Source: a virus
Virus record (IMG/VR): IMGVR_UViG_3300028608_000055
Span: 1-30,591 of that record
Strand: one strand, 5' to 3'
DNA: 30,591 nucleotides
A model generated the notes under the pieces. It did not search any database and was not told the DNA's origin. It was given only the letters and a program-made list of their open reading frames with translations. Both the position numbers and the translations under genes were made by a program. This document shows, piece after piece, positions 5,695 through 21,337 of the stretch; the first letter of the stretch is position 1; every line of letters begins with the position of its first letter.

Positions 5695-6193
5695 TTAGCT
5701 CATCCCCCGGATCCTGCTGAATCATCAGCATGCTCTTCCGGTCGAAGGCCAGGGCAAGGCGCGGCGAGATGCTGATTTCGTGCCGTGGCGGTGTGAGAAA
5801 CTTCGCCGCGTGCAGCCGGCCGAGGGCGTGAATTCCGTGGATCAGCGCCTCGATCATCTGGCTGTAGGTGGCGTCAGCCCAGTCGCAGATGGCGCGAAGG
5901 TGCTGGCCCGTTCGCTTCCTGGCTGACAACCGCAGCGGCTCAGTCCGCGCCACGGATCGGTGAGCCTCGATTTCGTGGCGCGCGATCCTGAACAGTGCGT
6001 GATGCCCGAGCGCTTCGATGTGATGAATCATCAGCGTCATCGCCTCGCCCTGTTCCTCTATGCTGGCCCACTCCATCAGCTCTAGCAGGGCCTGTTTAGT
6101 CCCTGGTCGAACCTTCAAACGCAGGTCTTCTTCCTGGTGCTTTGCTGACTTCTCGCGCCGGCGCCGGTCGCGCTCTGCCTGGTCCATCGCCAT
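5663..6193 (-). CDS. Putative DNA-binding protein with duplicated ribbon-helix-helix-like unit (176 aa)
   Basis: After a very basic N-terminus (QAERDRRRREKSAKHQ) the protein contains two similar units: LRLKVRPGTKQALLELMEWA (24-43) running to HHIEALG (57-63), and LRLSARKRTGQHLRAICDWA (87-106) running to HGIHALG (119-125). Each is followed by a related RHEI segment (72-75 and 137-140). Strand-helix-helix order and the LRLKVRP opening fit the Arc/MetJ ribbon-helix-helix fold, which works as a dimer; here two copies may fold as an internal dimer. The start ATG follows GAGGTGCCGT. Regulatory function is inferred. The gene body also contains one copy of the dispersed inverted repeat (5947-5981). 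Confidence 0.75.
   Translation of the reverse strand: MAMDQAERDRRRREKSAKHQEEDLRLKVRPGTKQALLELMEWASIEEQGEAMTLMIHHIEALGHHALFRIARHEIEAHRSVARTEPLRLSARKRTGQHLRAICDWADATYSQMIEALIHGIHALGRLHAAKFLTPPRHEISISPRLALAFDRKSMLMIQQDPGDELITPPYAAASI
5947..5981. repeat. Dispersed inverted repeat, copy 1 of 4
   Basis: Left arm GCGCCACGGAT (5947-5957) and right arm TTTCGTGGCGC (5971-5981) pair perfectly over eight bases (GCGCCACG/CGTGGCGC), with 24 bases from arm start to arm start. The right arm plus the next base (TTTCGTGGCGCG) is identical in all four copies. This copy lies inside the coding sequence of the RHH-like gene. Confidence 0.7.
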
Positions 6194-6274
6194 ACGGCAC
6201 CTCTTTCAATCCGCTGGGCGGGATGTGTATGTGCAACTGGCGGCGACGCTGCTGCGTGAGTTTCTGGATGCGTC

Positions 6275-6439
6275 TCATGGGTGGCACACCTCAATAGGTG
6301 TTTTCTTCGTCGAGCCAGAGGGCATAACCACCAGTAGACGCTTGTTTCCTCGGTATACGCCCCAAGGCTGACCAGTGGATCTGGCCATGGCCGCCGCGTA
6401 CTTCACGGCGGGCACGGGCTGGGAGATTGTGGCGATCAT
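6275..6439 (-). CDS. Small hypothetical protein (54 aa)
   Basis: The reading frame from ATG 6439 to TGA 6275 encodes 54 residues beginning MIATISQPVPAVKYAAAMA and ending TPIEVCHP. It starts three bases after the upstream gene stops, with GGTAGGCC just before the ATG. The middle (QPWGVYRGNKRLLVVMPSG) has two beta strands. It is short but fills an otherwise empty stretch and keeps the tight packing of the operon, so I think it is real. Function unknown. Confidence 0.6.
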   Translation of the reverse strand: MIATISQPVPAVKYAAAMARSTGQPWGVYRGNKRLLVVMPSGSTKKTPIEVCHP

Positions 6440-6442
6440 GGC

Positions 6443-6955
6443 CTACCCCCGATTCCGCTGGAGCGGGAAGTCAATGTCGAACTCGGCAAGAATGCGCGCG
6501 AACCTGCAGTTACCGATGCCCAGCTCCAAAGTCACGCCCCACCGGGACTTGCCGGCATCACGCAGGGCAATGATCTTGTCGGCGAGGTCACGATCCTCCT
6601 GGCTCGGTTCGGTCTTTACCTTCTCCGGTCTGGCCGGTTTCGGCGGGCTGAAGAACCTAAATCCTCCCCGCGCTGCTACGCCCCAGAGAGCGGTCTTGGT
6701 TTCGCCCAGCAGCTTTGCGACCTCACCACAGGTCATGGTCTTGGCGAGCTCTTCGATCTGAGCTGTGCGTGCCTTGGCGCGGCTTTTACGTTCGCCGCCG
6801 CGCTCCTGCTTGACTGGCTTGACCCGCGTCGGCTTCGGCTCAGGGTGATGGCGCTGCCGGAAGGGCACGTACTGGAACCCCTCCAGCACAATGATCCGGC
6901 CGCCAGACGAGAGGAAGGCCGCTTTGGCGGCCTCCAGGTCGATTGATGGGTTCAT
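6443..6955 (-). CDS. Putative DNA-binding phage protein with two helix-turn-helix-like regions (170 aa)
   Basis: Two helix-turn-helix-like stretches are visible: TCGEVAKLLGETKTALWGVA (about 74-94) and DAGKSRWGVTLELGIGNCRF (about 132-152). A strongly basic linker, rich in Lys, Arg and Pro, precedes the first. The N-terminus (MNPSIDLEAAKAAFLSSGG) includes a short strand motif IIVLEGFQYVPF. No enzyme motif is seen. Position directly downstream of Gp157 in the leftward operon suggests an early regulatory or recombination-accessory protein. The exact role is unknown. Confidence 0.75.
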   Translation of the reverse strand: MNPSIDLEAAKAAFLSSGGRIIVLEGFQYVPFRQRHHPEPKPTRVKPVKQERGGERKSRAKARTAQIEELAKTMTCGEVAKLLGETKTALWGVAARGGFRFFSPPKPARPEKVKTEPSQEDRDLADKIIALRDAGKSRWGVTLELGIGNCRFARILAEFDIDFPLQRNRG

Positions 6956-6962
6956 GCTGACC

Positions 6963-7526
6963 TCACTTGATGCGGATTGAGCTCTCGCCGCGCTCCAAAT
7001 GCGCCCAGGCTGGCTCAGGTCTCAGTTCGTGTTCGCAGTCTTCACCCGCGGCCATGCGCTTGCGGACGGCTTCGTTGTGCTCGCGATCGGCTTTGAGCTT
7101 TGCGGCGATGGCGTTCTTGTCCGGCGCGATCTTGGTCACGACCGAAGTCAGGTCGTCTGGCACCGCCTGTTCGTTATCGACGATGACCCGCTCCTTACCG
7201 GTGACCAGGCTGATGGTGAACAGCGGACGCTTGATCGACTTGATGTTGGCTGCATCCATGTTTCGGCGAAGGTAGTCGGTGATAGCCGTGACGCTGTTGG
7301 CCTTGATGCGCTTGAGCTCATTGAGGCGGTCAATCTCCGCGTCGATCGCGCTGATGTCACCCTCGATGTTCCGGCGCAGCATGACGATGTTATCTGCCTT
7401 CACTTCAAACTCGCCCTGGATGCCGGCCATGGTGTCCTGAATAGCCTGCTTGAGGCCTTCGTCGTCGGTGTCACACATGGCGGCGAGTTCGGCCATCTGG
7501 CCGGTGAGTGCGTAAAGCTGGGTCAT
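6963..7526 (-). CDS. Siphovirus Gp157-family protein (187 aa)
   Basis: This is a recognisable Gp157-type protein: an N-terminal helical half (TGQMAELAAMCDTDDEGLKQ, VMLRRNIEGDISAIDAEIDR) with long coiled-coil character, the phrase NELKRIKANSVTAITDYLRR (about 69-88), and then a beta-rich part (PLFTISLVTGKERVIVDNE). In Streptococcus phage Sfi21 Gp157 was linked to phage resistance; in most phages the family sits beside recombination genes. Here it overlaps the annealing-protein gene upstream by four bases (ATGA), which fits a role in the recombination module. The biochemical role of the family is not settled. Confidence 0.85.
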   Translation of the reverse strand: MTQLYALTGQMAELAAMCDTDDEGLKQAIQDTMAGIQGEFEVKADNIVMLRRNIEGDISAIDAEIDRLNELKRIKANSVTAITDYLRRNMDAANIKSIKRPLFTISLVTGKERVIVDNEQAVPDDLTSVVTKIAPDKNAIAAKLKADREHNEAVRKRMAAGEDCEHELRPEPAWAHLERGESSIRIK

Positions 7527-8254
7527 GCTGCGGCCTCCTGCGGCTTGCCGGCTTCGAGATTCTTCAATTCAAGGGAGATTCGGGCGGCGCCTTTCTCATC
7601 CTTGCGGCCGATGAGCTTGCGCACAGCGTGGTCGTGGATTTTCTTGCGCTCATGCGGCGTCACCGCCTTCTGCATGGTCTCGATCGTGTCCTTGATGAAG
7701 TCCAGGCGCTCCTGCTGTTGGCGCTCGATCTCGGCCTGGCGGTCTTCGGCCTGCTCGATCGCCTGCTCGGCCTGCAGCTGCTGCACGTAATTCACGTCAT
7801 CGAACATGCCCAGGAACACGTCGGCGCTGAAGCCCAGCATGGACAGGGCTTTCTTGATGGCGTCGGTAAGCGACTTCTTCGGCGCCTCGCCATCAGTGGT
7901 CATGCCGTACTTGGTCTTGTACTGGTACCGTGTGCAGCCGTACTGCTCGACCTCGCCGCGCTGGCCGTCCTGCATGAACCAGAGCTGAATCTTGACGGTG
8001 TGGCCGATCTCCCGGCCAAGGCAGATTCGCTTGTCACCTTCGCCGGCAAACACCTCGTGTCCGTCGTCAAAGCGCTCTTCCAGAACCTTCCAGCCCCAGC
8101 CGATCCCGACTGGGCCGAACATTTCGGTCGCCTTCATGACCATTGCGGTGCCGTTCAGGCTGGTGATCTTTTGGCCGCCGACCTCGGCGTTTTTGGTGAA
8201 GCGGGTATCGGTCGTCTGCACCTGCTCCCAGATGCGCATGTTGGTAGTGGACAT
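7523..8254 (-). CDS. Putative single-strand annealing recombination protein, Rad52/Erf-like (243 aa)
   Basis: The N-terminal 150 residues carry MRIWEQVQTTDTRFTKNAE, then KATEMFGPVGIGWGWKVLEE, a central beta region and SLTDAIKKALSMLGFSADVF. The G-x-GW segment and the D-A-I-K-K-A-L-S-x-L-G-F helix resemble phage Rad52/Erf-fold annealing proteins, which anneal complementary single strands during phage recombination and replication. The C-terminal part is a long charged helix (QAEQAIEQAEDRQAEIERQQ) and then a polar tail. The neighbour is Gp157. The start has GAGG seven bases upstream. Family assignment is from pattern, so moderate. Confidence 0.65.
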   Translation of the reverse strand: MSTTNMRIWEQVQTTDTRFTKNAEVGGQKITSLNGTAMVMKATEMFGPVGIGWGWKVLEERFDDGHEVFAGEGDKRICLGREIGHTVKIQLWFMQDGQRGEVEQYGCTRYQYKTKYGMTTDGEAPKKSLTDAIKKALSMLGFSADVFLGMFDDVNYVQQLQAEQAIEQAEDRQAEIERQQQERLDFIKDTIETMQKAVTPHERKKIHDHAVRKLIGRKDEKGAARISLELKNLEAGKPQEAAA

Positions 8255-8427
8255 TAGAAAACCTCGCGCCAGGCCGGCGCCGTCAGTTGGAAGGGGAAAT
8301 GCCAGGTCACCCAGGCACGGAGGTATGCTCCAGGCCCTGGCTGCGGTGGATGGTTGCGCGCTCTCGCCGCTTACGCTCCCGAAGGGGTACGGCTATCCCG
8401 AAGGCCCGCCGTGCGCCGGGTGTGAAT

Positions 8428-8544
8428 TCAAGAAGTGATGGTGCCGGCAAGGGCGCTCAGGAGGAGCCAGCCGGTGCAGAAGGTGAGGGCTATGAAGGAG
8501 CCGCGCCAGGTAGCGAATCGGCGGGCCCGCTGGTACCCGGTCAC
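8428..8544 (-). CDS. Micro-protein with one membrane segment (38 aa)
   Basis: A GTG at 8544 overlaps the stop of the preceding gene (GTGA) and opens a 38-codon frame. The product begins with a basic stretch (MTGYQRARRFATWRG) followed by one hydrophobic helix (SFIALTFCTGWLLLSALAG). That is a positive-inside, single-span design. Downstream, 8255-8427 has no convincing gene; it holds a short CCCGAAGG direct repeat (8379, 8398) and weak hairpins before the Rad52-like gene. Small membrane proteins are common phage lysis or host-takeover genes, but no function can be assigned. Confidence 0.5.
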   Translation of the reverse strand: MTGYQRARRFATWRGSFIALTFCTGWLLLSALAGTITS

Positions 8545-8756
8545 GCCCGGACCTCGTAGGCCAAGGTACACATGCCGCAGAGGTAGGCCCGACCCGACCA
8601 GGCCGCCGGGTTCTCGATGTGTGCTAAGCGCGCTTGATTCATGGCGTCCGCCATGGTCAGGCCCTTGAACACCAGCAGGATGCGGTCATCTGGCAGGGCC
8701 TGCGCAGCCTCGGCCACCTGGTCGTCGATGATCGACGGGAAAATAGGCGTGGTCAT
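8541..8756 (-). CDS. Small hypothetical protein (71 aa)
   Basis: ATG 8756 overlaps the upstream stop as ATGA. The product reads MTTPIFPSIIDDQVAEAAQA, then DRILLVFKGLTMADAMNQAR and ends YLCGMCTLAYEVRA with a CxxC pair. It is mostly helical. No family is recognised. It lies in the run of short coupled genes between the annealing protein and the alginate-lyase-like gene. Confidence 0.7.
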   Translation of the reverse strand: MTTPIFPSIIDDQVAEAAQALPDDRILLVFKGLTMADAMNQARLAHIENPAAWSGRAYLCGMCTLAYEVRA

Positions 8757-8944
8757 GCAACCTCCTTGCGCCCATCAACGATCTTGTTGAGGCGCCCGCA
8801 GTAGTGGTTGAACTCTTCGATGGTGATGCGCTGGTCGGCCAGCATTTCAGTCAGCTGGCACTGGATATCTGCGCCCCAGCTGAGTGATGTGGCGGGGTGC
8901 ATGAGCGCATCCAGCTGCTGGTCAATCAGGACATGCGGACTCAA
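8753..8944 (-). CDS. Small helical hypothetical protein, TTG start (63 aa)
   Basis: I choose a TTG at 8944 because its TTGA overlaps the previous stop and CAGGAG lies eight bases upstream; a GTG at 8953 would also be in frame. The product (MSPHVLIDQQLDALMHPATS...) has two or three helices including QLTEMLADQRITIEEFNHYC. No domain is recognised. The unusual start codon and overlap suggest expression depends on translation of the gene before it. Confidence 0.65.
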   Translation of the reverse strand: MSPHVLIDQQLDALMHPATSLSWGADIQCQLTEMLADQRITIEEFNHYCGRLNKIVDGRKEVA

Positions 8945-9369
8945 AACCCACACTCCTGCACATCCAGCTCTCTGACCCGCTCGGCGGCTACAGCCTTCGC
9001 GGCAATCGGGTGCAGCAAGTCACTGGCAATGTCCTTGAGCACGCCAGGCCCACCCAGTAGGTAGGTGCACAGCTCCATGATGAAGCCCGAGCTTCCGGTG
9101 CCCATGCCCGCCATGACCAACTTGCCGAAGGCGTCCTGCTGGTCCAGGCCGTCGATCTGGCGATTGTTCAGGTGGTCCTGAACCGCCCGGGCCATGTCTG
9201 CCTGAGTGATTTCGCCGCACTCGCCGCGGTAACCCCAGCTGACCCGATACCCCAGGACCAGCTGAGCCGCGTGCGTTTCGATCCACTCCGCCTGGGCGGA
9301 TTCATCGTCGCTCACCGCCGGCGGCATCCGGTCGTCGTACTCAAACTGTGCTGCTCGAAGTGCGCCCAT
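8941..9369 (-). CDS. Hypothetical phage protein (142 aa)
   Basis: The start at ATG 9369 has AGGAGGACGCC directly upstream, much better than the ATG at 9399. The protein starts MGALRAAQFEYDDRMPPAVS and has a WIETHAAQLVLGYRVSWGYR segment, which resembles small phage early proteins of unknown role. Its C-terminal half is helical (FIMELCTYLLGGPGVLKDIA). It is the first gene after a 285-base untranslated stretch with two long hairpins, so its translation may be controlled by leader structure. Confidence 0.7.
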   Translation of the reverse strand: MGALRAAQFEYDDRMPPAVSDDESAQAEWIETHAAQLVLGYRVSWGYRGECGEITQADMARAVQDHLNNRQIDGLDQQDAFGKLVMAGMGTGSSGFIMELCTYLLGGPGVLKDIASDLLHPIAAKAVAAERVRELDVQECGF

Positions 9370-9393
9370 GGCGTCCTCCTGGTGGTTGTGCGG

Positions 9394-9465
9394 CCGCATT
9401 GGCCAGGAGCCAGGCGCGGGTGACCAAACCCACCGTGAAAGGTGGCCTGGCGCCTGCCAATGCGG
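9394..9465 (-). other. Long imperfect hairpin in the leader of the 142-aa gene
   Basis: CCGCATTGGC (9394-9403) and GCCAATGCGG (9456-9465) are a perfect 10-bp pair. After one bulged base they continue as an 11-bp stem with a single mismatch (9405-9415 with 9445-9455). A further CCACC/GGTGG pairing lies in the loop (9430-9445). In the leftward RNA this structure ends about 15 bases before the ribosome binding site of the gene starting at 9369. It may be a leader control element, a processing site or a small RNA. Confidence 0.6.
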
Positions 9466-9492
9466 TCGTTTTGAAGGGAAGGGGATGCGGGA

Positions 9493-9604
9493 TGCATCGG
9501 GGTGTGATCTGGCGGGTCCGTCTCATCCTCGGCGGGAGCGACCCTCCGATTTGCAACCACGTTGCCGCGCTTAGATGCTTCGACTCAGATCACACTCCGA
9601 TGCA
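9493..9604. repeat. 18-bp inverted repeat flanking a 76-base spacer
   Basis: TGCATCGGGGTGTGATCT (9493-9510) is repeated in inverse as AGATCACACTCCGATGCA (9587-9604) with one mismatch. It lies between the alginate-lyase-like gene (ends 9655) and the 142-aa gene. Together with the adjacent 9394-9465 hairpin it fills a 285-base gap that has no convincing gene on either strand. It could form a long-range stem in the leftward transcript. Confidence 0.6.
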
Positions 9605-9654
9605 GCCTGCGATGGGAAGCAGGGCATCGGGCCGTCTTTCCGGCTGTGATTGGG

Positions 9655-10329: not shown

Positions 10330-10382
10330 TGGTTACTCCTGACGATAAAATCATTGGCCTGGCACGATTGCCTTCCAACCGT

Positions 10383-10427
10383 GATGCGGGCATCCGCATC
10401 CCTCTGTGCACTTTGGAAATGCGCAGA
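10383..10427 (-). other. Two hairpins upstream of the alginate-lyase-like gene
   Basis: GATGCGG/CCGCATC (10383-10400, perfect 7-bp stem, 4-base loop) and TCTGTGCA/TGCGCAGA (10403-10427, 8-bp stem with one weak pair) lie in the 162-base gap between the 61-aa gene and the lyase gene. Neither is followed by a T-run in the leftward direction, so they look like leader structures rather than terminators. Confidence 0.45.
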
Positions 10428-10491
10428 AGGATGAGTTCGCGAGTAATTCGAGCCGGCTAGGCCCTGTCGCCAAGGCCAGCCAGTGAAATCG

Positions 10492-10677
10492 TCATGCTGC
10501 GGCCTTGCAGTCAGCGGCCGTCATCCGCTGCCCATCTTCCAACTCGACCACGCACACGCCATTGCGGTACCCGCGCTCGGTGTTGAGCCGGTTTGCCTCG
10601 TGGATGCAGGCGGCCAGGTCGCTGTCGGCAAACACCTGCAGCTCGCCACGCAGGGTGATGCGGATGACCTTGTTCAT
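10492..10677 (-). CDS. Small hypothetical protein (61 aa)
   Basis: ATG 10677 overlaps the stop of the previous gene as ATGA. The product alternates strand and helix (MNKVIRITLRGELQVFADSD, then a helix, then GVCVVELEDGQRMTAADCKA), a compact alpha/beta pattern. No motif for an enzyme or DNA binding is evident. It is the second gene of the PL transcript, where phages often keep host-takeover proteins. Confidence 0.7.
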   Translation of the reverse strand: MNKVIRITLRGELQVFADSDLAACIHEANRLNTERGYRNGVCVVELEDGQRMTAADCKAAA

Positions 10678-11209: not shown

Positions 11210-11215
11210 AGGTGA

Positions 11216-11238
11216 AATATGTACCAATGGTTCACATT
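11216..11238. promoter_or_regulatory. Operator OL (23 bp), repressor site at PL
   Basis: The site reads AATATGTAC, five central bases, GTTCA, then CATT. It matches the PR site 13955-13977 at 18 of 23 positions. Such identity 2.7 kb apart at two divergent early promoters, with near-dyad symmetry, is the pattern of a CI/Cro operator set. Confidence 0.75.
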
Positions 11239-11951: not shown

Positions 11952-11974
11952 AACAAGCCCGCCGAAGCGGGCTA
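11952..11974 (-). terminator. Intrinsic terminator of the toxin operon
   Basis: AGCCCGC/GCGGGCT stem with a TTCG tetraloop in the leftward RNA, followed by TTGTT. The stem begins next to the toxin stop codon (TAG at 11974-11972). Confidence 0.75.
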
Positions 11975-12412
11975 GTTGTTACTGCGCCATTCCAACGCAG
12001 CTCTGCAGAGATACTTCATGACGTCCCGATCCCGAGACTTTCCGTGGGCATCAGGCCACAGGAAGGCGAGAATAAGGTAGCGATCCTCATACAGTTCGCC
12101 CTGAGTATAAACCAGAGCTGCGTCTTCTCCGGGACGCCCCGTGCGGCATACTCGGTCACGCTGAGGCGTATTAGGCCGGAATTTGGCAGGGGGTATGCGC
12201 ACATGAATGTGCATCAGACAAGCGTCAAGAGCCTGGGAGGGCTGTGTGTAGGGTGCATCGCGGCCAAAAATCACGGGTATCTCAAGGCGGTTCGATGCGA
12301 TATAGCGCTCGAACTCCGATTTTAAACCGCTTGAGAGCCCGGGATGTTTTTGGTCCACAGGCAAGAAGAATTCTTGGAACGTCCCTGGGTGAAAGTCAAT
12401 CTGGATTGGCAT
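11972..12412 (-). CDS. YafO-like type II toxin (146 aa)
   Basis: Residues 48-146 follow the E. coli YafO pattern closely: IFGRDAPY (48-55), MHIHV (67-71), LVYTQG (100-105) and ILAFLWPDAH (114-123), followed by a helical RDRDVMKYL segment. YafO is a ribosome-dependent mRNA interferase that cuts mRNA downstream of start codons and stops growth. The first 47 residues differ from YafO. The gene lies eight bases after an upstream partner gene and ends in its own terminator, so it is a two-gene operon read leftward between PL and the repressor. Toxicity is inferred from the family. Confidence 0.75.
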   Translation of the reverse strand: MPIQIDFHPGTFQEFFLPVDQKHPGLSSGLKSEFERYIASNRLEIPVIFGRDAPYTQPSQALDACLMHIHVRIPPAKFRPNTPQRDRVCRTGRPGEDAALVYTQGELYEDRYLILAFLWPDAHGKSRDRDVMKYLCRAALEWRSNN

Positions 12413-12420: not shown

Positions 12421-12930
12421 TTAAGCGATCTGGGCGATGCGCTTCGTCGTATGGTTGGCCAGCTCGATCAGGTCGGAGGATCGCAGGCTCGTTGGGAACT
12501 CTTCAGGCTTCACAAAATACTGACGGTACATCATGTCCATGGTTGCCATGCGGCTGCGCACGCGAGCAACGGATCGGCGGAACTGGTTGTGCTCTTTCAA
12601 GAGAACTGCGGGGATACGAGTCTCTTTCAAGGTTTCCTCAAGCTGCCTGGTGGCCTTGAGAAGCTCCATGTTGCGGTGGTAGCGCTGACCGTCAAGCGAC
12701 GTCATTGTAGCGAGGCGAGAGACATTCTTTGCAAATTGCTCGTCAAGCTCACTCCAGCCCTGGATAAGGCTAGTGATTACGCCCCTGAGGCGAATGACCT
12801 CAGCAGAATCCTCTGCAACCTGGGCGGTAGCTTGTTTCGTTACCTGCTCGGCAAGAGAGCCGTAGTCGCTGATCAAGGCGAGCGCTGCGACGAACAAAGC
12901 AGAAGCCGACGCATTCGCATTGAGTGGCAT
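12421..12930 (-). CDS. Helical protein upstream of the toxin, candidate antitoxin (169 aa)
   Basis: The start is ATG 12930 (GGAG six bases upstream); the ATG at 12942 lies on that ribosome binding site. The protein begins MPLNANASASALFVAALALI and is helical almost throughout. Segments such as AEDSAEVIRLRGVITSLIQG and MELLKATRQLEETLKETRIP suggest coiled-coil packing. It is not the YafN/Phd-type antitoxin usual for YafO and has no obvious DNA-binding motif. Position first in a two-gene operon with a YafO-like toxin makes an antitoxin or immunity role plausible but unproven. Confidence 0.7.
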   Translation of the reverse strand: MPLNANASASALFVAALALISDYGSLAEQVTKQATAQVAEDSAEVIRLRGVITSLIQGWSELDEQFAKNVSRLATMTSLDGQRYHRNMELLKATRQLEETLKETRIPAVLLKEHNQFRRSVARVRSRMATMDMMYRQYFVKPEEFPTSLRSSDLIELANHTTKRIAQIA

Positions 12931-12977
12931 GGGGAACTCCATTTATGACGATGGCATAAAGCCAAAATCGGAAAGCG

Positions 12978-13005
12978 ATTATCGTCCGTGAAAAAAAATA
13001 GTCAA
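12978..13005 (-). promoter_or_regulatory. Strong promoter of the candidate toxin-antitoxin operon
   Basis: Leftward: -35 TTGACT (13005-13000), 16-bp spacer with an eight-T run, -10 GATAAT (12983-12978). Both boxes match sigma-70 consensus at five of six positions. The transcription start would be near 12971, about 40 bases before the ATG. An inverted repeat (13016-13050) lies just upstream. Confidence 0.75.
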
Positions 13006-13015
13006 TCGCCTGTCG

Positions 13016-13050
13016 GCGCCACGAAAACGCATTTCGTCGTTTCGTGGCGC
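13016..13050. repeat. Dispersed inverted repeat, copy 2 of 4 (perfect arms)
   Basis: GCGCCACGAAA (13016-13026) and TTTCGTGGCGC (13040-13050) are perfect 11-bp arms around a 13-base loop. It lies directly upstream of the promoter 12978-13005, between the repressor gene and the toxin operon. There is no adjacent T-run, so a regulatory site fits better than a terminator. Confidence 0.8.
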
Positions 13051-13135: not shown

Positions 13136-13909
13136 TTAGAGGAGCACCGAGTACCAAAAAACCTTGCCCAGCACACTGATCCCGCTTTCGGCCAGCTGCT
13201 GCGCGGTGTACTCCTCGTCCGGGTGCTCGTCCTGGTTGAAGCTGCGGAAGCGCAGGCCGCCGCCTGGCATCCGGTAAAGCGTCTTCACGCGCAGCTCGCC
13301 GCCGTGGTCGACTGCGTACATCTTCCCGTCCTTCACCGACGTTGAGCCCTTGTCGACACCAACGGTGCTTCCATCTGGAAGAACAGGCTCCATGCTGTTT
13401 CCGCGCACAGTGACGCACACGGCCTGGTCGAACTGCACGCCTTGGTTGCGCAAGGTCAGCTTTCCGAAACGGAGCTTACGAGTGCCGGATTTCTCGATCA
13501 CCGTCCGGCCAGATCCGGCGGACAGCTCTACTTCCTTGAGGAACGGCACGTACACCTCATCGTCGTCCAGTGGGGTGTCGTCGTCCCATACGGAGATTGG
13601 GCCGAGCATGGTGGCGTTGCTGATTGGGGCTGAGGCCTGCTCTTGGCTGCCGACTCTATCCGGGCCGGTCATCTCACCCCTGCCGTACTCCAGCCACTCC
13701 ACGCGCACAGAGAGCGCGGACGCGAGCGCGAGCATTTTTGCGCCGCCAGGCATGGATTCGCCATTCAGCCATTTACTGACCGCTTTGGGGGTCACCCCAA
13801 CGAGATTGGCGAGACGAGCCCCCGCACCCCAGGCAGCGAACCCGTTGTGATCAAGGGCTTGTTTGAGGCGTGACGCAAAGGCCGCGCGGACTTCTTCGAT
13901 ATGAACCAT
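13136..13909 (-). CDS. CI-like repressor, HTH plus LexA/S24 self-cleavage domain (257 aa)
   Basis: The N-terminal domain is a helix-turn-helix (ARLANLVGVTPKAVSKWLNG, 31-50) like CI/Cro proteins. The C-terminal half is a LexA/S24 peptidase domain: Ser172 in RGNSMEP and Lys209 in GELRVKTLYR form the dyad, and Ala131-Gly132 in ELSAGSG is the likely cleavage site, at normal spacing. It should hold the prophage silent and be cleaved when RecA is activated. I choose ATG 13909 because a promoter lies at leaderless distance; an in-frame ATG at 13954 gives 272 aa but lacks a ribosome binding site and would start inside the operators. Confidence 0.9.
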   Translation of the reverse strand: MVHIEEVRAAFASRLKQALDHNGFAAWGAGARLANLVGVTPKAVSKWLNGESMPGGAKMLALASALSVRVEWLEYGRGEMTGPDRVGSQEQASAPISNATMLGPISVWDDDTPLDDDEVYVPFLKEVELSAGSGRTVIEKSGTRKLRFGKLTLRNQGVQFDQAVCVTVRGNSMEPVLPDGSTVGVDKGSTSVKDGKMYAVDHGGELRVKTLYRMPGGGLRFRSFNQDEHPDEEYTAQQLAESGISVLGKVFWYSVLL

Positions 13910-13920
13910 AGGTTCAATAT
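13898..13920. promoter_or_regulatory. Third operator, over the repressor start codon
   Basis: It contains ATATG and GTTCA at the same positions as the other two 23-bp sites, and a perfect TGAACC-ATA-GGTTCA dyad (13902-13916). It covers the repressor ATG (13909-13907), which suggests autoregulation as with lambda OR3. Confidence 0.65.
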
Positions 13921-13945
13921 CGCATGTACTTGCGTGTACTTTCAG
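13916..13945 (-). promoter_or_regulatory. Candidate PRM promoter giving a leaderless repressor mRNA
   Basis: Leftward: -35 CTGAAA (13945-13940), 18-bp spacer, -10 GATATT (13921-13916). The predicted start falls on or next to the A of ATG 13909. No Shine-Dalgarno precedes that ATG. Both boxes are only four of six matches, typical for a weak, regulated promoter. Confidence 0.5.
13926..13941 (+). promoter_or_regulatory. GTACTT direct repeat at the PR -35 box
   Basis: GTACTT-GCGT-GTACTT, repeats ten bases apart; the first overlaps the -35 TTGCGT in the same way as at PL (11243-11257). Possible binding site of a second regulator. Confidence 0.5.
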
Positions 13946-13957
13946 TTCCGACATAAT
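13930..13957 (+). promoter_or_regulatory. PR promoter
   Basis: -35 TTGCGT (13930-13935), 16-bp spacer, -10 CATAAT (13952-13957); predicted start near 13964, about 30 bases before the Cro-like ATG. It drives the rightward early operon. The alternative -10 CATATT at 13972 has no good -35. Confidence 0.6.
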
Positions 13958-15202: not shown

Positions 15203-15210
15203 CCGTCCGA

Positions 15211-15330: not shown

Positions 15331-16146
15331 ATGCAGACCCAAAGTGTACAGGCCCTACAAAGGCTCGCGCCACAAAATGCGAACCACGATTTCGTGGCGC
15401 GCACGATGTCGTCGCGTGAAATCGCTGACCTGACCGGGAAGCAGCACTTCCACGTCAAGCGCGACATCGAAAAGCTGCTCGCCGACCTCGGTGAAGATGC
15501 ATCCACTTTTGGATGCACCTATCTGGACGGCCAGAACCGCGCCCAGACCGAGTACCGGCTGGATCGCGAGCATACAGACTGCCTGCTCACAGGCTACAGC
15601 GCTGCAATGCGCATGGCCGTAATCAAGCGCTGGCGCGAGCTGGAGGATCAGGTCGCTGTCGCGCTACCTGACTTCACCAATCCAGCGGCTGCTGCGCGCG
15701 CCTGGGCAGACCAGGTAGAGCAGAAGGAAGCCGCCGAAAAGGCTCGCGTTCTGCTGACCGTCGAAGTCCAGGCCCAGGCCAAGAAGATCGACCACCTGGA
15801 GAACCTGTTCAAGGAAGGAATGACCCCGACCCAGTTCTGCAAGGGCCTTAATGGGGTCAATGTCATGCAGGTCGGGCACTTTCTCGAGGGCCGCAGCTGG
15901 CTCTACAACGAGAGCAAGTCCGGTACCCGCTGGCGCGTGGGCGCCTACGCTCGCGACAAGTACATGACCGAGCATCAGCAGCAGGTCAGCCCGCACGGCA
16001 AAGACCCATTCATCGCCTTCACTCCTGCGCTGCTGCGCAAGGGCGCCGTGCGCCTGTACGAGCTGTACCTGTCCGGCGAGCTGCCCATGAAGAAGAACTG
16101 GGACGGCCTGCACACCCACGACAAGGCAGTGCGGGGTGCAGCATGA
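15331..16146 (+). CDS. Rha-type phage regulatory protein with KilAC-like C-terminus (271 aa)
   Basis: Residues 25-110 match the Rha family pattern: MSSREIADLTGKQHFHVKRD, then a YxLDREHTDCLLTGYS segment and a helix AVIKRWRELE. The C-terminal part (SGTRWRVGAYARDKYM; RLYELYLSGELPMKKN) resembles the KilAC/ANT domain of phage antirepressors. Such proteins interfere with repression or host growth. A long helical linker (about 118-155) joins the two parts. It overlaps the next gene by four bases. One copy of the dispersed inverted repeat lies in codons 13-24. Confidence 0.85.
   Translation: MQTQSVQALQRLAPQNANHDFVARTMSSREIADLTGKQHFHVKRDIEKLLADLGEDASTFGCTYLDGQNRAQTEYRLDREHTDCLLTGYSAAMRMAVIKRWRELEDQVAVALPDFTNPAAAARAWADQVEQKEAAEKARVLLTVEVQAQAKKIDHLENLFKEGMTPTQFCKGLNGVNVMQVGHFLEGRSWLYNESKSGTRWRVGAYARDKYMTEHQQQVSPHGKDPFIAFTPALLRKGAVRLYELYLSGELPMKKNWDGLHTHDKAVRGAA
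15367..15400. repeat. Dispersed inverted repeat, copy 3 of 4
   Basis: GCGCCACAAAA (15367-15377) and TTTCGTGGCGC (15390-15400), ten of eleven pairs, with a 12-base loop. It contains a nested CCACGA-TT-TCGTGG dyad (15384-15397). It lies in the first codons of the Rha-type gene. Confidence 0.7.
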
Positions 16147-16661: not shown

Positions 16662-17563
16662 GCATGGAATTGATGGTCAAGGCCATGAAGACCAAGGTCG
16701 GCAATCCGCTGCGCAAGCTGGTGCTCATCAAGCTGGCCGACAACGCCAACGACATGGGCGAATGCTGGCCCTCGTATCAGCACGTCGCTGACCAGTGCGA
16801 GATCAGCAAGCGCTCTGTCATGAACCACATCAACACCCTGTGCGGTGCTGGCCTGTTGCGCAAGGAGATCCGCAAGGGTGGACCAAAGGGCAACTCCTCG
16901 AACGTCTACTACCTCACCTTGAGTGGTGCAGCAGATTCACTAGGGGTAGTGCAGCAGATTCACCAGGGTAGTGCACCAGGTTCACCCCCTAGTGCAGCAG
17001 ATTCACTAGGGGGTAGTGCAGGAGCTGCACCCAGAACCAGTCACTCTTTTGAATCAGTAAAGGAACCAGTCACTGAACCTGTTGCGACCCAGGCTGAAGC
17101 CATGGTCGCGGAAGGTATCGTGGTTCCGTTCACGGCTCAGCAACCGCGCTGCGAGATCCCAGCTGATATGCCAGGACCGAAGGACCAGTCCTGCAAAACC
17201 TTCAAGGCTTGGGCGAACTATGCAATGGCCTATCGCAAGCGCTACCACGCTTGGCCGGTCTGGAATGCGAAGACCGCCGGGCAGGTTGGTCAGCTGATTG
17301 CCCGCCTCGGCATAGAGGTCGCCCACCATGTGGCCGCGTACTTCCTGGCGATCAACGACGCGCGCTTGATCAACGGCTGCCACAACCTGGGCGACCTACT
17401 GGCCAAGGCCGAGGCCTACCACACCCAGTGGGTCACCAACCGCCAGATGAACTCCACGACTGCCCGCCAGCAGGAGCAGACCCAAGCGAACATCAATGCG
17501 GCGCAGGAAGCGGCTGACTCAATCCTGAACGGCAAGGGAGGGCAGCGGAATGCTTTCCTCTGA
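16658..17563 (+). CDS. O-like replication initiation protein (301 aa)
   Basis: The N-terminal region has a winged-helix type domain (CWPSYQHVADQCEISKRSVM, about 36-55, then NHINTLCGAGLLRKEIRKGG) typical of phage O-like initiators that bind the origin. A low-complexity linker (about residues 90-130) is encoded by DNA iterons. The C-terminal half (ARLGIEVAHHVAAYFLAIND onward) is helical and would contact the helicase loader, as in lambda O. The start is taken as GTG 16658, overlapping the upstream stop, with AAGGGG eight bases away; ATG 16664 is the alternative. Confidence 0.8.
   Translation: MSMELMVKAMKTKVGNPLRKLVLIKLADNANDMGECWPSYQHVADQCEISKRSVMNHINTLCGAGLLRKEIRKGGPKGNSSNVYYLTLSGAADSLGVVQQIHQGSAPGSPPSAADSLGGSAGAAPRTSHSFESVKEPVTEPVATQAEAMVAEGIVVPFTAQQPRCEIPADMPGPKDQSCKTFKAWANYAMAYRKRYHAWPVWNAKTAGQVGQLIARLGIEVAHHVAAYFLAINDARLINGCHNLGDLLAKAEAYHTQWVTNRQMNSTTARQQEQTQANINAAQEAADSILNGKGGQRNAFL
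16926..17031 (+). repeat. Iterons inside the O-like gene, candidate replication origin
   Basis: Four direct repeats start at 16926, 16949, 16971 and 16992, each built on GTGCAGCAGATTCAC plus a G-rich end, with unit lengths 23, 22, 21 and 24. A partial fifth (17016) is the dyad GTGCAG-GAG-CTGCAC. Because unit length is not a multiple of three, the same DNA is read in different frames (AADSLG, QQIHQG, SAPGSPP). Selection therefore appears to act on the DNA, as in lambda ori within gene O. Confidence 0.75.
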
Positions 17564-18356
17564 ACAAACCGCCTCTTTGGCCGGTGCTATCTGCGCTACC
17601 GCTGAGGCAATGGGGCAGGTGATCAGCGCTGGAGGCGCGCAGCTCATCGCTGAGGACCTTTCGGCCTATAACCCTGACGTGATCAAGGGCGCGCTTCGTG
17701 CGTGCCGTAGAGAGCCTTCAGGGCGCCTTTCGCTTGGCATGGTCCTCAAGCACATCCACGCGGCTGATTCCCGTCCCGGTAAGGATGAGGCGTGGTCGAT
17801 TGCCTTGGCGGCCAGTGATGAGCACGAGACCGTGGTGCTCACCACAGAAATCCGCCAAGCAATGATCGCCTCCGAGCCGATTCTTGAAGCTGGCGACAAG
17901 GTCGGCGCCCGAATGGCTTTCATGAGCGCCTACGAGCGCCTGGTGAGCTTCGCCCGCGCCGAGGATCAGCCGGCCAAGTGGGAAGTGTCGCTGGGCTACG
18001 ACGCTGGGCGCCGCGTGGTGGCCATCGAATCCGCCGTCCGCGCCCAGCTCATCACCCACGAGACCGGGGCCAAGTACCTGGCCGACCTGCGTATCCCACC
18101 AATCACCCAGGATGGCCAGGCCATTGCCGGCCTGCTCACCGGCGAGGTGCGCCCGCAGGCCAGCGCCAAGACCCGGGAAAAGCTCGCCGAGGTGCGCTGC
18201 ATCCTCAAGGCGGCCAAGGCCAAGAAAGACCGTGAGCGCGCCAAGGAATCCCAGCGCCGCCGCGTCGACACGTACCTACGCAAGCGACAGACCCGCGTCG
18301 CCATTGCTCAGTTGAACATCAAGCGCGCCGGGGAGCCGGCCGGGAAGGGCGTATGA
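17550..18356 (+). CDS. Replication-associated protein, candidate helicase loader analogue (268 aa)
   Basis: It directly follows the O-like gene (14-base overlap), the position of lambda P or DnaC-type loaders. The N-terminal part has NPDVIKGALRACRREPSGRL and ADSRPGKDEAWSIALAASDE, a pattern found in unannotated phage proteins at this locus. The C-terminal third is very basic and helical (KAAKAKKDRERAKESQRRRV). No Walker motif is visible, so it is not a DnaC-like ATPase. A P-like partner role is inferred from position. Confidence 0.65.
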   Translation: MLSSEQTASLAGAICATAEAMGQVISAGGAQLIAEDLSAYNPDVIKGALRACRREPSGRLSLGMVLKHIHAADSRPGKDEAWSIALAASDEHETVVLTTEIRQAMIASEPILEAGDKVGARMAFMSAYERLVSFARAEDQPAKWEVSLGYDAGRRVVAIESAVRAQLITHETGAKYLADLRIPPITQDGQAIAGLLTGEVRPQASAKTREKLAEVRCILKAAKAKKDRERAKESQRRRVDTYLRKRQTRVAIAQLNIKRAGEPAGKGV

Positions 18357-18571
18357 CCATCGACAAGCAAACTCTCCAGCCCCTGCTGTGGTCCGTTGTT
18401 GCTGCTTGGCGGGCGGGGGACGCTGAGCTGCAGCGCCACACCGACGCCCTGGACGCATTCCTCGGCGAGATGACCGTGGAAGAGGTTGCGCTGGAGCTGC
18501 TGGCGGAGATCGACCAGCTGGCCGCTCATGTACGCGCCGCGGGCGCCCAGTTGCAGGAGGTGGCGGCATGA
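18353..18571 (+). CDS. Small acidic helical protein (72 aa)
   Basis: It overlaps both neighbours by four bases (ATGA). The product is helical, with TVEEVALELLAEIDQLAAHV forming a leucine-rich amphipathic segment near the C-terminus. No family recognised. It lies between the replication and nin-like genes. Confidence 0.65.
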   Translation: MTIDKQTLQPLLWSVVAAWRAGDAELQRHTDALDAFLGEMTVEEVALELLAEIDQLAAHVRAAGAQLQEVAA

Positions 18572-19038
18572 CCGAGAAAATCAGCGTCAACTGCCAGGCC
18601 AAGCTATCCGAGGCCATCACGAAGTTGACCAGGCTGTTCCGCGACAAGAAATTCGTCGTGGTCAGCATGCGCCCGGGTAAGGATCGCACCCTGGATCAAA
18701 ACGCATTGTGGTTCGCCATGTACGAGCGCATCGCCAAGAGCACCGAGATGGGTGACGTGGAAGAGGTCCGCCGCTACTGCAAGCTTCACCACGGCGTGCC
18801 GATCATGCGCGCCTCCTGCGAAGAGTTCCGGGACGGCTACAACATGGCGCTGCTCAACCTGCCGTACGAGATCAAGCTGCGTTGGATGGGGCCGTGCGCC
18901 ATGTTCGGGCCGGATGGCTTCCCGGTGACCCGCCTGTTTGATCGCGCGCAGGGCTGCCAGTACACGGACCGCATCGTCGAGGAGTTTGCCGCGCGCGGCG
19001 TGCACTTCGCTGACCTGCTTGGGGAGGAGGCCGCATGA
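18568..19038 (+). CDS. NinB-like recombination protein (156 aa)
   Basis: The pattern KFVVVSMRPGKDRTLDQNAL (about 28-47) followed by a helix, a central helical region and a C-terminal EEFAARGVHFADL matches the layout of NinB-family proteins, which have the RxLDQN signature. In lambda NinB (Orf) binds SSB and assists RecF-type recombination. It lies two genes upstream of ninG, as expected for a nin region. The similarity is recognised by motif only. Confidence 0.6.
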   Translation: MTEKISVNCQAKLSEAITKLTRLFRDKKFVVVSMRPGKDRTLDQNALWFAMYERIAKSTEMGDVEEVRRYCKLHHGVPIMRASCEEFRDGYNMALLNLPYEIKLRWMGPCAMFGPDGFPVTRLFDRAQGCQYTDRIVEEFAARGVHFADLLGEEAA

Positions 19039-19265
19039 GAAGGCGTGACTGGTACGACCGCCGAACGGACAAGCGCGTAGCTCTTCAGATCGCAGAGGAG
19101 CAGGGGATTGTTGCTGACAGCACTGAGGTGAGGCAGGCACTGGTCGCCAGGCTGGAATCGGGCGAAATGACCCTGGAGCAGGTGCAGGACGAGCTGCGCA
19201 AAGTGAAGCGCGACGCGAAGAAGAACGGCAAGAAGATTCGCTCGCAGATCTGGAGATCGGCATGA
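19035..19265 (+). CDS. Small basic hypothetical protein (76 aa)
   Basis: GGGGAGGAGG precedes the ATG. The protein starts MRRRDWYDRRTDKRVALQIA and ends with a Lys-rich helix (RKVKRDAKKNGKKIRSQIW). It is coupled to ninG by a four-base overlap. No family recognised; nin-region genes of this size are often dispensable accessory proteins. Confidence 0.65.
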   Translation: MRRRDWYDRRTDKRVALQIAEEQGIVADSTEVRQALVARLESGEMTLEQVQDELRKVKRDAKKNGKKIRSQIWRSA

Positions 19266-19888
19266 CACGGACAGCTCTCAAGGAGGTGAAGCAGAAGACC
19301 TGCAAGGCCTGCGGTAAGAAGTTCCGGCCATCGCTCTCTACGCAGAAGGCCTGCAGCGTGGCGTGTGCGCTGGACCTGGCTAAGAAGCCGGAGAACCAGG
19401 CGGTGGCGCGGAAGGCGATCGCCCAGCGTGAGCGCCGCGAGATCCAGGTGCGCAAGCAGAAGCTCAAGAGCCGAGCGGACTACATCCGGGAAGCCCAGAT
19501 CGAGTTCAACACCTTCATCCGGCTGCGCGACAAGGACGAGCCTTGCATCTGCTGCGGTAGTTACGGGCCCGGCGAGGACTGGCTGACCGGAGGTAAGTGG
19601 GACGCTGGCCATTTCCTCAGTCGAGGCGCTTACCCAGAGCTTCGCTTCGACGAAGACAACTGCCACAAACAGCTCAAGTCCTGCAATGGCGGCTCGGGCA
19701 AGTACGCCGCCAAAGGCCGGACCGTTGCTCAGGGCTACCGCGAACGGCTGATCCAGAAGATTGGCCAGGAGCGCGTCGACAGACTCGAAGGCCCTCATGA
19801 GGCCCAGCGGTACACCATCGAAGAACTCAAAGGCATCAAGGCCCTATATCGGGCAAAGGTCAAACAGCTCAAGGAGCAAGCAGCATGA
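19262..19888 (+). CDS. ninG: NinG/Rap recombination endonuclease (208 aa)
   Basis: NinG (lambda Rap) is a structure-specific endonuclease acting on D-loops and Holliday junctions. The N-terminal zinc site is visible: Cys14, Cys17, Cys31, Cys35. The central region has CICCG (95, 97, 98), the WDAGHFLSRGAYPELRFDED block with His117, and further Cys134/His135 and Cys141, the typical NinG core. Length is as expected (about 200 aa). It is tightly packed in the rightward early operon. Confidence 0.92.
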   Translation: MTRTALKEVKQKTCKACGKKFRPSLSTQKACSVACALDLAKKPENQAVARKAIAQRERREIQVRKQKLKSRADYIREAQIEFNTFIRLRDKDEPCICCGSYGPGEDWLTGGKWDAGHFLSRGAYPELRFDEDNCHKQLKSCNGGSGKYAAKGRTVAQGYRERLIQKIGQERVDRLEGPHEAQRYTIEELKGIKALYRAKVKQLKEQAA

Positions 19889-20031
19889 CCGTGGAATGGG
19901 CATTTTTCATCCTCGCCTCGATGCTTGTGGTGTCCGGCGCGGTCTTGGCTTGGGGCGCTGCATTGGCTCGAAAGCGCAGCTACGAAGAATTCATTTTGAG
20001 AAAGTCCAAGCGTGTAGGGGGTGGGGAATGA
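19885..20031 (+). CDS. Small membrane protein (48 aa)
   Basis: The frame starts at an ATGA overlap with ninG and ends in an ATGA overlap with the next gene. It encodes one hydrophobic helix (WAFFILASMLVVSGAVLAWG) followed by a basic tail (ARKRSYEEFILRKSKRV). The coupling on both sides argues that it is real. Function unknown. Confidence 0.6.
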   Translation: MTVEWAFFILASMLVVSGAVLAWGAALARKRSYEEFILRKSKRVGGGE

Positions 20032-20573
20032 ATTACCAGAATGTGGTATCGGCAGTTGTCCGCGCCCTGGCGGCTGAGACTATCAACAGCGCGGGCGGGT
20101 GCGACTTTGAGCCGAAGGTCCAAGCAGCCAAGCAGAAGGGCGCTATCGTGGGCAAGGAGGCTGCTTTCCTCTTCGACTGCATGGTGTTCAGCCGGCTGCA
20201 CAAAAACCTCACCCCTGAGCACTGGCGGCATCTGGTGGCGAAGTACTCGACCCACGTCGACCGCAAGCACGCAGCGATAGAGGAGATCACCCGCACGCAT
20301 CGTTCTCCGGCGCCGGAGCGTTTCCGCCACTGCGCAATCCTAACCTGGGCAATGCCTAAGCTGCCGGGAGTGGATGGGAAACGCAGCACAAGCGTTCTGC
20401 CCGCGGCCTGGTACGAGATGGACAACTGGAGCAACGAGCCTCATCCGATCAAGACTCAAGAGCGCTGGAGGCGGGATATCCGTAAGGCGCTGGAGAGCGC
20501 TGTGAACGAGGCTTTGACCGAGGCGCAGCACATCCTCGACCATGAAGGCCTTTTGGTGGCAAATGTCGCTTGA
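20028..20573 (+). CDS. Candidate late antiterminator, Q-like (181 aa)
   Basis: I start at ATG 20028 (MNYQNVVSAVVRALA...), overlapping the previous stop. The protein is helical and basic with no enzyme motif: KGAIVGKEAAFLFDCMVFSR, a His/Trp-rich middle, and a C-terminal helix KALESAVNEALTEAQHILDH. Its place as last gene of the early operon, directly before a TTGACG promoter-like sequence and an intrinsic terminator, is that of lambda Q. Sequence similarity to known Q proteins is not obvious, so the role is inferred from position. Confidence 0.5.
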   Translation: MNYQNVVSAVVRALAAETINSAGGCDFEPKVQAAKQKGAIVGKEAAFLFDCMVFSRLHKNLTPEHWRHLVAKYSTHVDRKHAAIEEITRTHRSPAPERFRHCAILTWAMPKLPGVDGKRSTSVLPAAWYEMDNWSNEPHPIKTQERWRRDIRKALESAVNEALTEAQHILDHEGLLVANVA

Positions 20574-20599
20574 CGCCGAGTGAGCCAATGAGCCAATAT
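20570..20599 (+). promoter_or_regulatory. Candidate pR' late promoter with direct repeat in the spacer
   Basis: TTGACG (20570-20575, using the Q-like stop codon) is a good -35; an 18-bp spacer leads to a weak -10 CAATAT (20594-20599). The spacer region holds TGAGCCAA twice in tandem (20581-20588, 20589-20596). In lambda and phage 21, Q binds between or beside the -35 and -10 boxes. Confidence 0.5.
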
Positions 20600-20644
20600 G
20601 CACCCATCCTGTCATTCCTGCGCGTTTAGGAGTGACCAAAATAA

Positions 20645-20669
20645 GCCCGGCCTCAGTGCCGGGTTTTTT
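20645..20669 (+). terminator. Intrinsic terminator, candidate tR'
   Basis: CCCGGC/GCCGGG stem with a 6-base loop followed by TTTTTT. It stands between the early operon and the lysis genes, about 40 bases after the candidate pR' start. Confidence 0.85.
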
Positions 20670-20718
20670 ATTGCCCGTAAGAGGCCCTCAATCGGGCCTG
20701 CATGACCAGGACCAACCT

Positions 20719-21030
20719 ATGCCCGAACCAGCAAGCACGACCGCCGGCGTCCTGCTGGTGAAGTACGGCGTGATCATTGGTGGCTTCGCCGGGGCGATCC
20801 TCTCTCTGACGTTCCTGCGAGGCCTCACCCGTGGCCAGGCCGTAGCGGCCTTCTTCACTGGCTTCACCTCAGCAGTTTTCTGCACTCCACTCGCAATCAG
20901 CTTCTTCAAACTCGAGACCGGGAGTGAAACCCAATACGGCGTGGCCTTCCTGATAGGCCTTCTGGCAATGAACATCATCCCAGTGTTGAAGTCACTGGTA
21001 GGACAGTTCGGAGCCAAAGGAGCTACCTGA
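20719..21030 (+). CDS. Putative holin (103 aa, three membrane helices)
   Basis: The ATG at 20719 has AGGA seven bases upstream. Three hydrophobic stretches follow a short polar N-terminus: LVKYGVIIGGFAGAILSLTF, AVAAFFTGFTSAVFCTPLAI and YGVAFLIGLLAMNIIPVLKS. The C-terminus is short and basic. Size, topology and position as first late gene fit a phage holin, which opens the inner membrane at lysis time. The particular holin family is not certain. Confidence 0.7.
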   Translation: MPEPASTTAGVLLVKYGVIIGGFAGAILSLTFLRGLTRGQAVAAFFTGFTSAVFCTPLAISFFKLETGSETQYGVAFLIGLLAMNIIPVLKSLVGQFGAKGAT

Positions 21031-21299
21031 TGAACACGACCATCGTGTCGGCGATGGCAGCCGCGGACGCCTTCCTGTGCGTCCTGGTGGTGATCGCCGC
21101 CTGTGACTACCTACGCCGGGTGCGCCCGATAGATCAGCCCATGCTGTCCGTCGCGTTCTACCTGGTAGCAATCGGCGCCTTTGGCTCGTTCCTTGGCGCC
21201 ATGCAAAGCCAGCTGGTAAGCCCGTTCGGCGTGATGGTGCATGCGGGGATCGTCCTGTATGCCTGGGCGCGGCGTGGGCACGTATTCAAGGTTGCGTGA
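21030..21299 (+). CDS. Second holin-like membrane protein (89 aa)
   Basis: It starts at the last base of the preceding stop codon (TGATG). Three hydrophobic helices are visible (SAMAAADAFLCVLVVIAACD; LSVAFYLVAIGAFGSFLGAM; GVMVHAGIVLYAWA) with short loops and a basic end. Tandem membrane proteins here could be a holin/antiholin pair. Many Pseudomonas phages have such pairs, but which one is the effector cannot be told. Confidence 0.7.
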   Translation: MNTTIVSAMAAADAFLCVLVVIAACDYLRRVRPIDQPMLSVAFYLVAIGAFGSFLGAMQSQLVSPFGVMVHAGIVLYAWARRGHVFKVA

Positions 21300-21302
21300 C
21301 CC

Positions 21303-21337
21303 GCACCACAAAACAGAGGTGCGCCGTTTCGTGGCGC
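21303..21337. repeat. Dispersed inverted repeat, copy 4 of 4
   Basis: GCACCACAAAA (21303-21313) and TTTCGTGGCGC (21327-21337), nine of eleven pairs, 13-base loop. It lies between the holin-like genes and the end of the minus-strand moron, in non-coding DNA. Confidence 0.65.

Follow-up and report, generated by a model that had tools for sequence, protein, structure and literature searches.

The DNA analysed here, the window, is a viral stretch of 30,591 nucleotides (positions 1 to 30,591 of IMG/VR virus record IMGVR_UViG_3300028608_000055), and the element in question is a dispersed palindrome, one copy of which lies inside a gene for a predicted ribbon-helix-helix (RHH) protein of the family phrog_5439. 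The 12-mer TTTCGTGGCGCG occurs in the window exactly four times, at 5971, 13040, 15390, and 21327, always on the plus strand. In 100 dinucleotide shuffles the expected number was 0.01 on average and no shuffle reached four, which rules out a chance origin of the four copies. Every copy serves as the right arm of a palindrome of 34-35 bp, GCGCCACR-N18/19-YGTGGCGC (class C), with left arms that begin at 5947, 13016, 15367, and 21303 and that show 2, 0, 1, and 2 mismatches over 11 bases, respectively. The arms are complementary over 7-11 bases, the four palindromes measure, in order, 35, 35, 34, and 35 bp, and their centres all differ. A first-pass annotation of the sequence had claimed four same-strand copies beyond chance, each with a partner arm to its left and a differing loop, and both claims hold, as do the coordinates and gene contexts that it gave for the four copies. 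The 34 bp length prompted consideration of a Cre/lox-like recombinase site; that candidate is excluded, since the four spacers differ, whereas a loxP-like site needs an identical spacer. The four copies, and the two genes in which copies 1 and 3 lie, are as follows.

5947-5981, no strand: site 1 (copy 1), 35 bp, class C, within the RHH gene 5663-6193 (minus strand)
13016-13050, no strand: extra site (copy 2), 35 bp, perfect 11-bp arms, between the end of the CI gene and the start of 12421-12942 (minus strand), at the YafO-like operon
15367-15400, no strand: site 2 (copy 3), 34 bp, class C, in the Rha/antirepressor gene 15331-16146 (plus strand), 36 nt from its start
21303-21337, no strand: site 3 (copy 4), 35 bp, class C, 3 nt past the stop codon of 21030-21299 (plus strand)
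5663-6193, minus strand: tandem RHH protein gene, proposed binder, with two phrog_5439 matches in one protein
15331-16146, plus strand: Rha/antirepressor-type gene (PF09669, Phage_pRha), with site 2 in its leader codons

The palindrome is distributed through Pseudomonas as a paired-arm element. An exact scan of IMG/VR for GCGCCACR..TTTCGTGGCGC, with spacings of 33-36 bp allowed, finds the class-C pattern in at least 120 stretches with very different flanks, and, among the matches listed, arms without mismatch make up 33 sites of 34 bp and 115 sites of 35 bp and none of another length, as compared to 1 match in reversed sequences. Of 249 Pseudomonas genomes, 61 contain the class-C pattern, each at 1 to 7 places (some of these chromosomal places carry no assignment to a prophage or satellite), and the reversed class-C pattern has no match in any of the 249 genomes. 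Reading of phrog_5439 genes brought out a sister class, class A (GCGACAC..GTGTCGC), in which the base at arm position 4 is exchanged symmetrically relative to class C. The class-A pattern occurs at 74 places in 50 of the 249 genomes; the reversed class-A pattern also matches (about 20 matches in 19 genomes, from a table read by eye), and lone class-A matches are therefore less secure. Forty prophage stretches of 20 kb, picked for holding a phrog_5439 gene together with a site within or close to that gene and not for class agreement, were scanned de novo for inverted repeats of 7 bases; the top repeats were GCGCCAC at spacings 21 and 20 and GCGACAC at spacing 20. The first-pass annotation had proposed to check whether related prophages conserve the two arms as a pair and whether the motif is equally frequent across the host chromosome; the arms are conserved in this way, and the motif is not so distributed. 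Pseudomonas repetitive extragenic palindrome (REP) elements are likewise short dispersed palindromes. Unlike REP elements or bacterial interspersed mosaic elements (BIMEs), which are recognised by many copies per chromosome, the class-C site is confined to at most seven places per positive genome; by eye, 3 of the 74 class-A places resemble host REP. Two other searches were less informative: BLAST of the 35-mer against phage records is too weak for two short arms, and a loose scan of genome contigs gave matches mostly outside Pseudomonas, which we take to be GC-rich chance matches. At the IMG/VR loci there is also a slight excess of arm pairs with one mismatch at 8-mer spacings 13 (6 places) and 24 (7 places), possibly other geometries or shifted repeats.

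The palindromes occupy three stereotyped places in these phages: one near codon 74 of the phrog_5439 gene, one in a Rha/antirepressor-type gene, 36-42 nt from its start, and one immediately downstream of the last lysis gene, ahead of the terminase region. The window has these three places and a fourth site near the YafO-like operon. Within the 40 prophage stretches, an in-gene site is present in 31 of the 40 phrog_5439 genes (at nt 221 in 18, nt 222 in 9, nt 212 in 2, and nt 218 and nt 383 in 1 each), at least two sites are present in 35, and all three places are occupied in 18; the second place lies mostly 8.5-13 kb, and the third mostly 14.6-19 kb, from the phrog_5439 gene. At the second place, in a gene of the Rha, BRO-N-like, KilA-N-like, or another type, the site is 34 bp long and, in 38 rows, begins 42 nt (27 rows), 39 nt (3 rows), or 36 nt (4 rows) behind the start codon; of the in-frame ATGs, the one closest to a distance of 42 nt upstream of the site was taken as the start, a choice that favours 42. 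The other four rows have no in-frame ATG, and two of those are not site 2. At the third place the site lies 1-3 nt past a stop codon in 22 of 27 cases. Annotated phages show the same layout. Sites of phiPSA1 are at 23421 (RHH reading frame), 32437 (35 nt into the antirepressor gene), and 39334 (directly past a stop codon, one mismatch), and those of Medea1 are at 46645 (RHH gene), 35940 (42 nt into Rha), 28814 (directly past a stop codon), and 37774 (next to cI). Two sites each were found in PseuP_222 and AH02, three in phiAH14a, one in UFJF_PfDIW6, and none in Fyn8; the reversed sequences of eight annotated-phage stretches gave 2 matches.

The site at the first place is conserved as DNA. In KFTVE-type phrog_5439 genes (the nt-222 group), the palindrome stands one base further, in another codon phase and over other residues, and is therefore kept as DNA. 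In the tandem protein of the window, only the first repeat retains the palindrome and the V-A residues that it encodes, and the second repeat has lost both. The codon-phase shift and the tandem repeat rule out a protein-only cause of copy 1.

Three side observations concern the second place. In the window (15331-15400) and in the site-2 regions of loci L477-L516, a terminator-like hairpin, a start codon, and the site together form a short leader fused in frame to many antirepressor-type bodies; in some phages the leader reading frame ends soon past the site. In the Pseudomonas aeruginosa antirepressor leader of Fyn8 (L534, 38460-38560), the right arm is kept and the left arm is degenerate. With the window RHH protein as query, tblastn matched 17 phage records, none of them from P. 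aeruginosa. The P. aeruginosa pattern fits decay of a site that would have no binder and could also be divergence.

The phrog_5439 gene often accompanies the sites and is predicted to encode an RHH protein. The window protein matches the phrog_5439 profile over two stretches (3.2e-48), and the family is matched in 41 of 50 records, comprising 40 of 49 site-bearing IMG/VR records (the longer ones among the matches listed) and PseuP_222. The family is matched in 117 of the 249 Pseudomonas genomes, namely in 74 of the 101 genomes with a site of either class vs. 43 of the 148 others (Fisher p 4e-12, not a strict probability, because the genomes are related). Curated models gave no Pfam match up to 0.1 and no relevant NCBIfam match up to 1 for the window RHH protein, and its superfamily is defined by fold and not by model match. 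The best of five models of the protein is a tandem RHH (pLDDT 77.8), with strands at residues 22-28 and 85-91, each followed by two helices, and its best structure match is an F-plasmid relaxosome chain (Z 10.8, 2.6 Å over 100 residues; Foldseek E 0.015).

The class of the sites follows the N-domain of the RHH protein. In most phages the sites are coherent in class, and two genomes carry a single class throughout (G117, class A only; G003, class C only). With A-type RHH proteins (KFTVE, R[LMF]H), site 2 is class A in 12 of 12 cases, and site 3 is class A in 12 of 13 and a hybrid in 1. With RLK/RMK/RLM-type proteins, class C is found in 8 of 8 cases at site 2 and 8 of 8 at site 3, and with RHR/RHK/RHT-type proteins in 6 of 6 at site 2 and 5 of 6 at site 3. 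For A-type proteins vs. all others, p is 3e-7 at site 3 and 5e-6 at site 2, uncorrected for relatedness. Hybrid sites are excluded from the nearest-neighbour and Fisher tests, and L478 and L496, which have other beta-strand types (L496 has sites A, A), enter no type count. The site-2 labels leave out a chance-like site (L480, 12621) and an extra site (L487, 9044), the L499 site was moved to site 3, and L489 was set by hand. For L482, site 3 was relabelled manually as A instead of C, because the pick had fallen on another site about 5 kb beyond it; the nearest-neighbour score of the RHH protein is 31 of 34 with this relabelling and 30 of 34 without it. Comparison with other proteins at the same loci, from which three REP-like class-A places were dropped, involves the following genes of the window.

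13136-13954, minus strand: CI-like repressor
21748-22356, plus strand: phrog_513 (PF18894, PhageMetallopep), first gene of the terminase region
22388-22849, plus strand: DUF2280 (PF10045), presumed terminase small subunit (TerS)
22821-24131, plus strand: terminase large subunit (TerL)

At site 2, NinG, O, P, Rha, and CI are worse than RHH as predictors of class. CI, considered as a binder, is rejected, since it tracks class worse than RHH at both distal sites (11 vs. 15 of 17 at site 2; 13 vs. 14 of 16 at site 3). At site 3, the nearest neighbour by RHH N-domain gives the class correctly in 20 of 21 cases vs. 12 of 21 for TerS, here the DUF2280 gene with its presumed role (phrog_513 was compared separately); all 8 discordant loci favour RHH (sign test p 0.008). 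The window RHH protein is the best-supported putative binder. The first-pass annotation had suggested a DNA- or RNA-level site, perhaps an operator for an RHH protein of the phage, with the Rha-type protein and CI as other candidates; the tracking of class by the RHH N-domain, and the poorer tracking by CI and Rha, speak for that putative assignment.

Sites are also present in satellites that have no RHH gene. The class-A query matched, among phage records, phiAH14b, which PMC4936722 reports as a satellite packaged in phiAH14a capsids. The helper, phiAH14a, has an RHH gene and three sites. In the satellite, a class-C site with perfect outer arms lies at 10507, and a further site has one mismatch. 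The main text of PMC4936722 contains 'palindrom' 0 times and 'inverted repeat' a single time, where it refers to another duplication; it does not describe the shared site. Genes for the AH14b primase and helicase are present in 7 of 20 stretches around sites (15 of the 20 from genomes without a phrog_5439 match). Defining satellites in the sampled genomes by an AH14b helicase at 73% identity or more (n = 26; the G236 fragment left out), we find a site in 19 of 26 stretches, or 20 of 27 with AH14b, as compared to 1 match in all of the reversed satellite stretches; the distance between site and helicase gene is several kb in some cases, and a few sites may fall outside the satellite. The RHH gene is matched in 0 of the 27 satellite stretches. 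In 11 of the 27, the site follows the start of the p18 match by 617-621 nt, has a nearly identical centre, and is class C in six and class A in five. Class-A and class-C sites occur together, 68 bp apart, in three of the 27 satellites and in G071 (L542, L555, L556, and L531 at around 12641/12709), which are satellites or satellite-like elements. Seven genomes (G038, G043, G118, G221, G228, G238, G239) combine a satellite of a single class with a phrog_5439 gene whose in-gene class is known. Satellite and gene match in class in all 7, weak agreement because six of the seven are C/C; G043 is identical to AH14b in the helicase gene and may be the same strain.

We consider it likely, from sequence comparison, that the four repeats are class-specific operators of the phage's own RHH protein, the phrog_5439 product of 5663-6193. 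The putative operator would comprise two inverted half-sites, GCG[C/A]CACRWWWT, with outer arms 27-28 bp apart, and C or A at position 4 would set two specificity classes. The RHH protein would bind these sites and would most likely act as a repressor or elongation road-block on its own operon and on those of antirepressor/replication and of morphogenesis, a reading suggested by location, because the sites lie inside transcribed regions (the protein's own gene, the antirepressor leader, and the region before the terminase genes). Satellites appear to carry the operator so that the RHH protein of a helper acts on them. More tentatively, and with somewhat less than even confidence, we propose that palindrome and RHH protein form a two-allele helper-satellite recognition code, in which satellites would carry the operator without the RHH gene, would switch between C and A by a symmetric double substitution, and, when they carry both sites, could be controlled by a helper of either class.

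Several results weigh against assignment of the sites to the RHH protein. At site 3, phrog_513 (17 vs. 20 for RHH, of 21) and TerL (16 vs. 20, of 22) do not differ significantly from RHH, and at site 2, g18568 ties RHH (14 of 14) and both g19761 (12 vs. 10) and phrog_513 (11 vs. 10, of 14) exceed it. RLR-type RHH proteins have class C in their own gene, yet their site 2 is C in 3 cases, A in 4, and hybrid in 1, and their site 3 is C in 6 of 7 and A in 1 of 7; the sites of AH14a/G043 are C, C, and A. Among the 101 site-bearing genomes, 27 have no phrog_5439 match (some are satellites, and G141 has an RHH-like tblastn match). The stretches read from G102 and G173 contain prophages with distal sites but no RHH homologue, and in G069 only an RHH tail is present; a search for the RHH N-domain in 16 stretches of 14 genomes, picked for a site and no phrog_5439 match (save G209), found none. 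As to the fold, four of the five models of the window protein reach only pLDDT 57-63, no Foldseek E is below 0.001, and a single-domain RHH model shows no strand and only weak matches. Beside these counts, we note of the window that homologues of the small gene at 18568-19038 matched RHH at the site-2 class in 14 of 14 loci.

Four other explanations were weighed. The palindromes may be mosaic-boundary linkers, sequence shared at module junctions and kept for module exchange by recombination. The sites do stand where junctions seem to be: one leader is joined to Rha, BRO-N-like, KilA-N-like, and HNH-like bodies (named by eye), and the same Rha body follows class-A and class-C leaders. RHH tails and N-domains are likewise combined in several ways among phages, and the RHH gene of G024 (L503/L324) carries, at the junction of two gene halves, a hybrid site with one class-A and one class-C arm, which is probably recombinant. 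Linkers, however, do not predict two arms at a 34/35 bp spacing, a symmetric double substitution in a conserved satellite site, or a far site whose class follows the RHH N-domain, and we regard this explanation as unlikely. We give similarly little credence to a pac-like packaging signal, or a replication or partition signal, that satellites share for packaging by the helper. Site 3 lies between lysis and terminase genes, satellites in helper capsids carry the site, and pac-type headful packaging is inferred for both AH14a and AH14b in PMC4936722, which names p60, the AH14a homologue of the DUF2280 gene, as the likeliest TerS. A packaging signal is expected once per genome, whereas helper genomes have three or four sites where all were seen, two of them inside unrelated genes, and multiple sites are the rule in the 20-kb stretches; satellites may hold two or more sites, and 7 of 27 stretches hold none. 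The poor tracking of class by the presumed TerS also argues against packaging, subject to the presumed role of the DUF2280 product. Recognition by a host-encoded DNA-binding factor that phages exploit would account for sites in prophages and satellites without phrog_5439, but the sites are few per genome and their class varies with phage RHH type inside one host genus, as in the single-class genomes G117 and G003, so that a host factor is improbable. An RNA hairpin in mRNAs is the least credible reading, and very improbable: the arms are complementary, and the A/T-rich arm positions 9-11 can pair in 151 of 195 cases at sites 2 and 3, but pairing there is possible in just 40 of 96 cases at site 1, and the sense strand has an A-C mismatch at position 8 in 14 of 65 cases at sites 2 and 3 (4 of 32 at site 1).

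Arc and Mnt of phage P22 are phage RHH proteins that act at an antirepressor gene, through short operators that overlap the ant promoter. The system proposed here resembles them in combining a predicted RHH protein with a site at an antirepressor gene (site 2, 35-42 nt inside Rha/Ant-type genes) and differs from them in that the sites are 34-35 bp long and are found in leader codons, within the gene of the regulator itself, and ahead of the terminase genes. Proteins of the Omega/ParG type bind, as RHH dimers, short asymmetric repeats, inverted or direct, whereas the sites here are dispersed over many kb. The chains of 9f0x and related entries, which we take to be F plasmid TraY, are the best fold match of the modelled window protein; TraY has two RHH units per chain, and sequence identity to it is about 10%. 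The phiAH14a/phiAH14b pair, the helper and satellite of PMC4936722, is alike in having a helper with an RHH gene and three sites and a satellite with the site. Judged against the open-licence literature, in which the arm strings occur only in papers unrelated by title, the placement of an operator within the gene of its regulator, the layout over three operons, the pair of alleles, and the involvement of satellites seem to be new. An open-licence literature search on Pseudomonas satellites and their control gave only PMC4936722, and how such satellites sense a helper may therefore be open; the putative operator makes this testable. A common phage family without assigned function, phrog_5439, gains a probable function and a testable DNA target, and three transcription units of lambda-like Pseudomonas phages and a satellite family would be linked in one putative regulon.

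The remaining genes next to the sites are the following.

11972-12412, minus strand: YafO-like toxin (PF13957)
12421-12942, minus strand: gene adjoining the extra site and the YafO-like gene
21030-21299, plus strand: phrog_13520 gene behind the holin gene, its stop codon followed by site 3

Six window proteins compared with defence-family models gave no match. The gene at 21748-22356, which directly precedes the DUF2280 and TerL genes, is a transposase according to PHROGs and a phage metallopeptidase (PF18894) according to Pfam. Locus L483 has the YafO-like pair and no extra site there; counterparts of the extra site are the Medea1 site at 37774, which is next to cI as is copy 2 of the window, and the class-A site of L487 at 9044. 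A sigma70-like promoter (TTGACT..GATAAT), recognised by eye, would serve the YafO-like operon; it lies within 12990-13050, adjoining the perfect palindrome at 13016.

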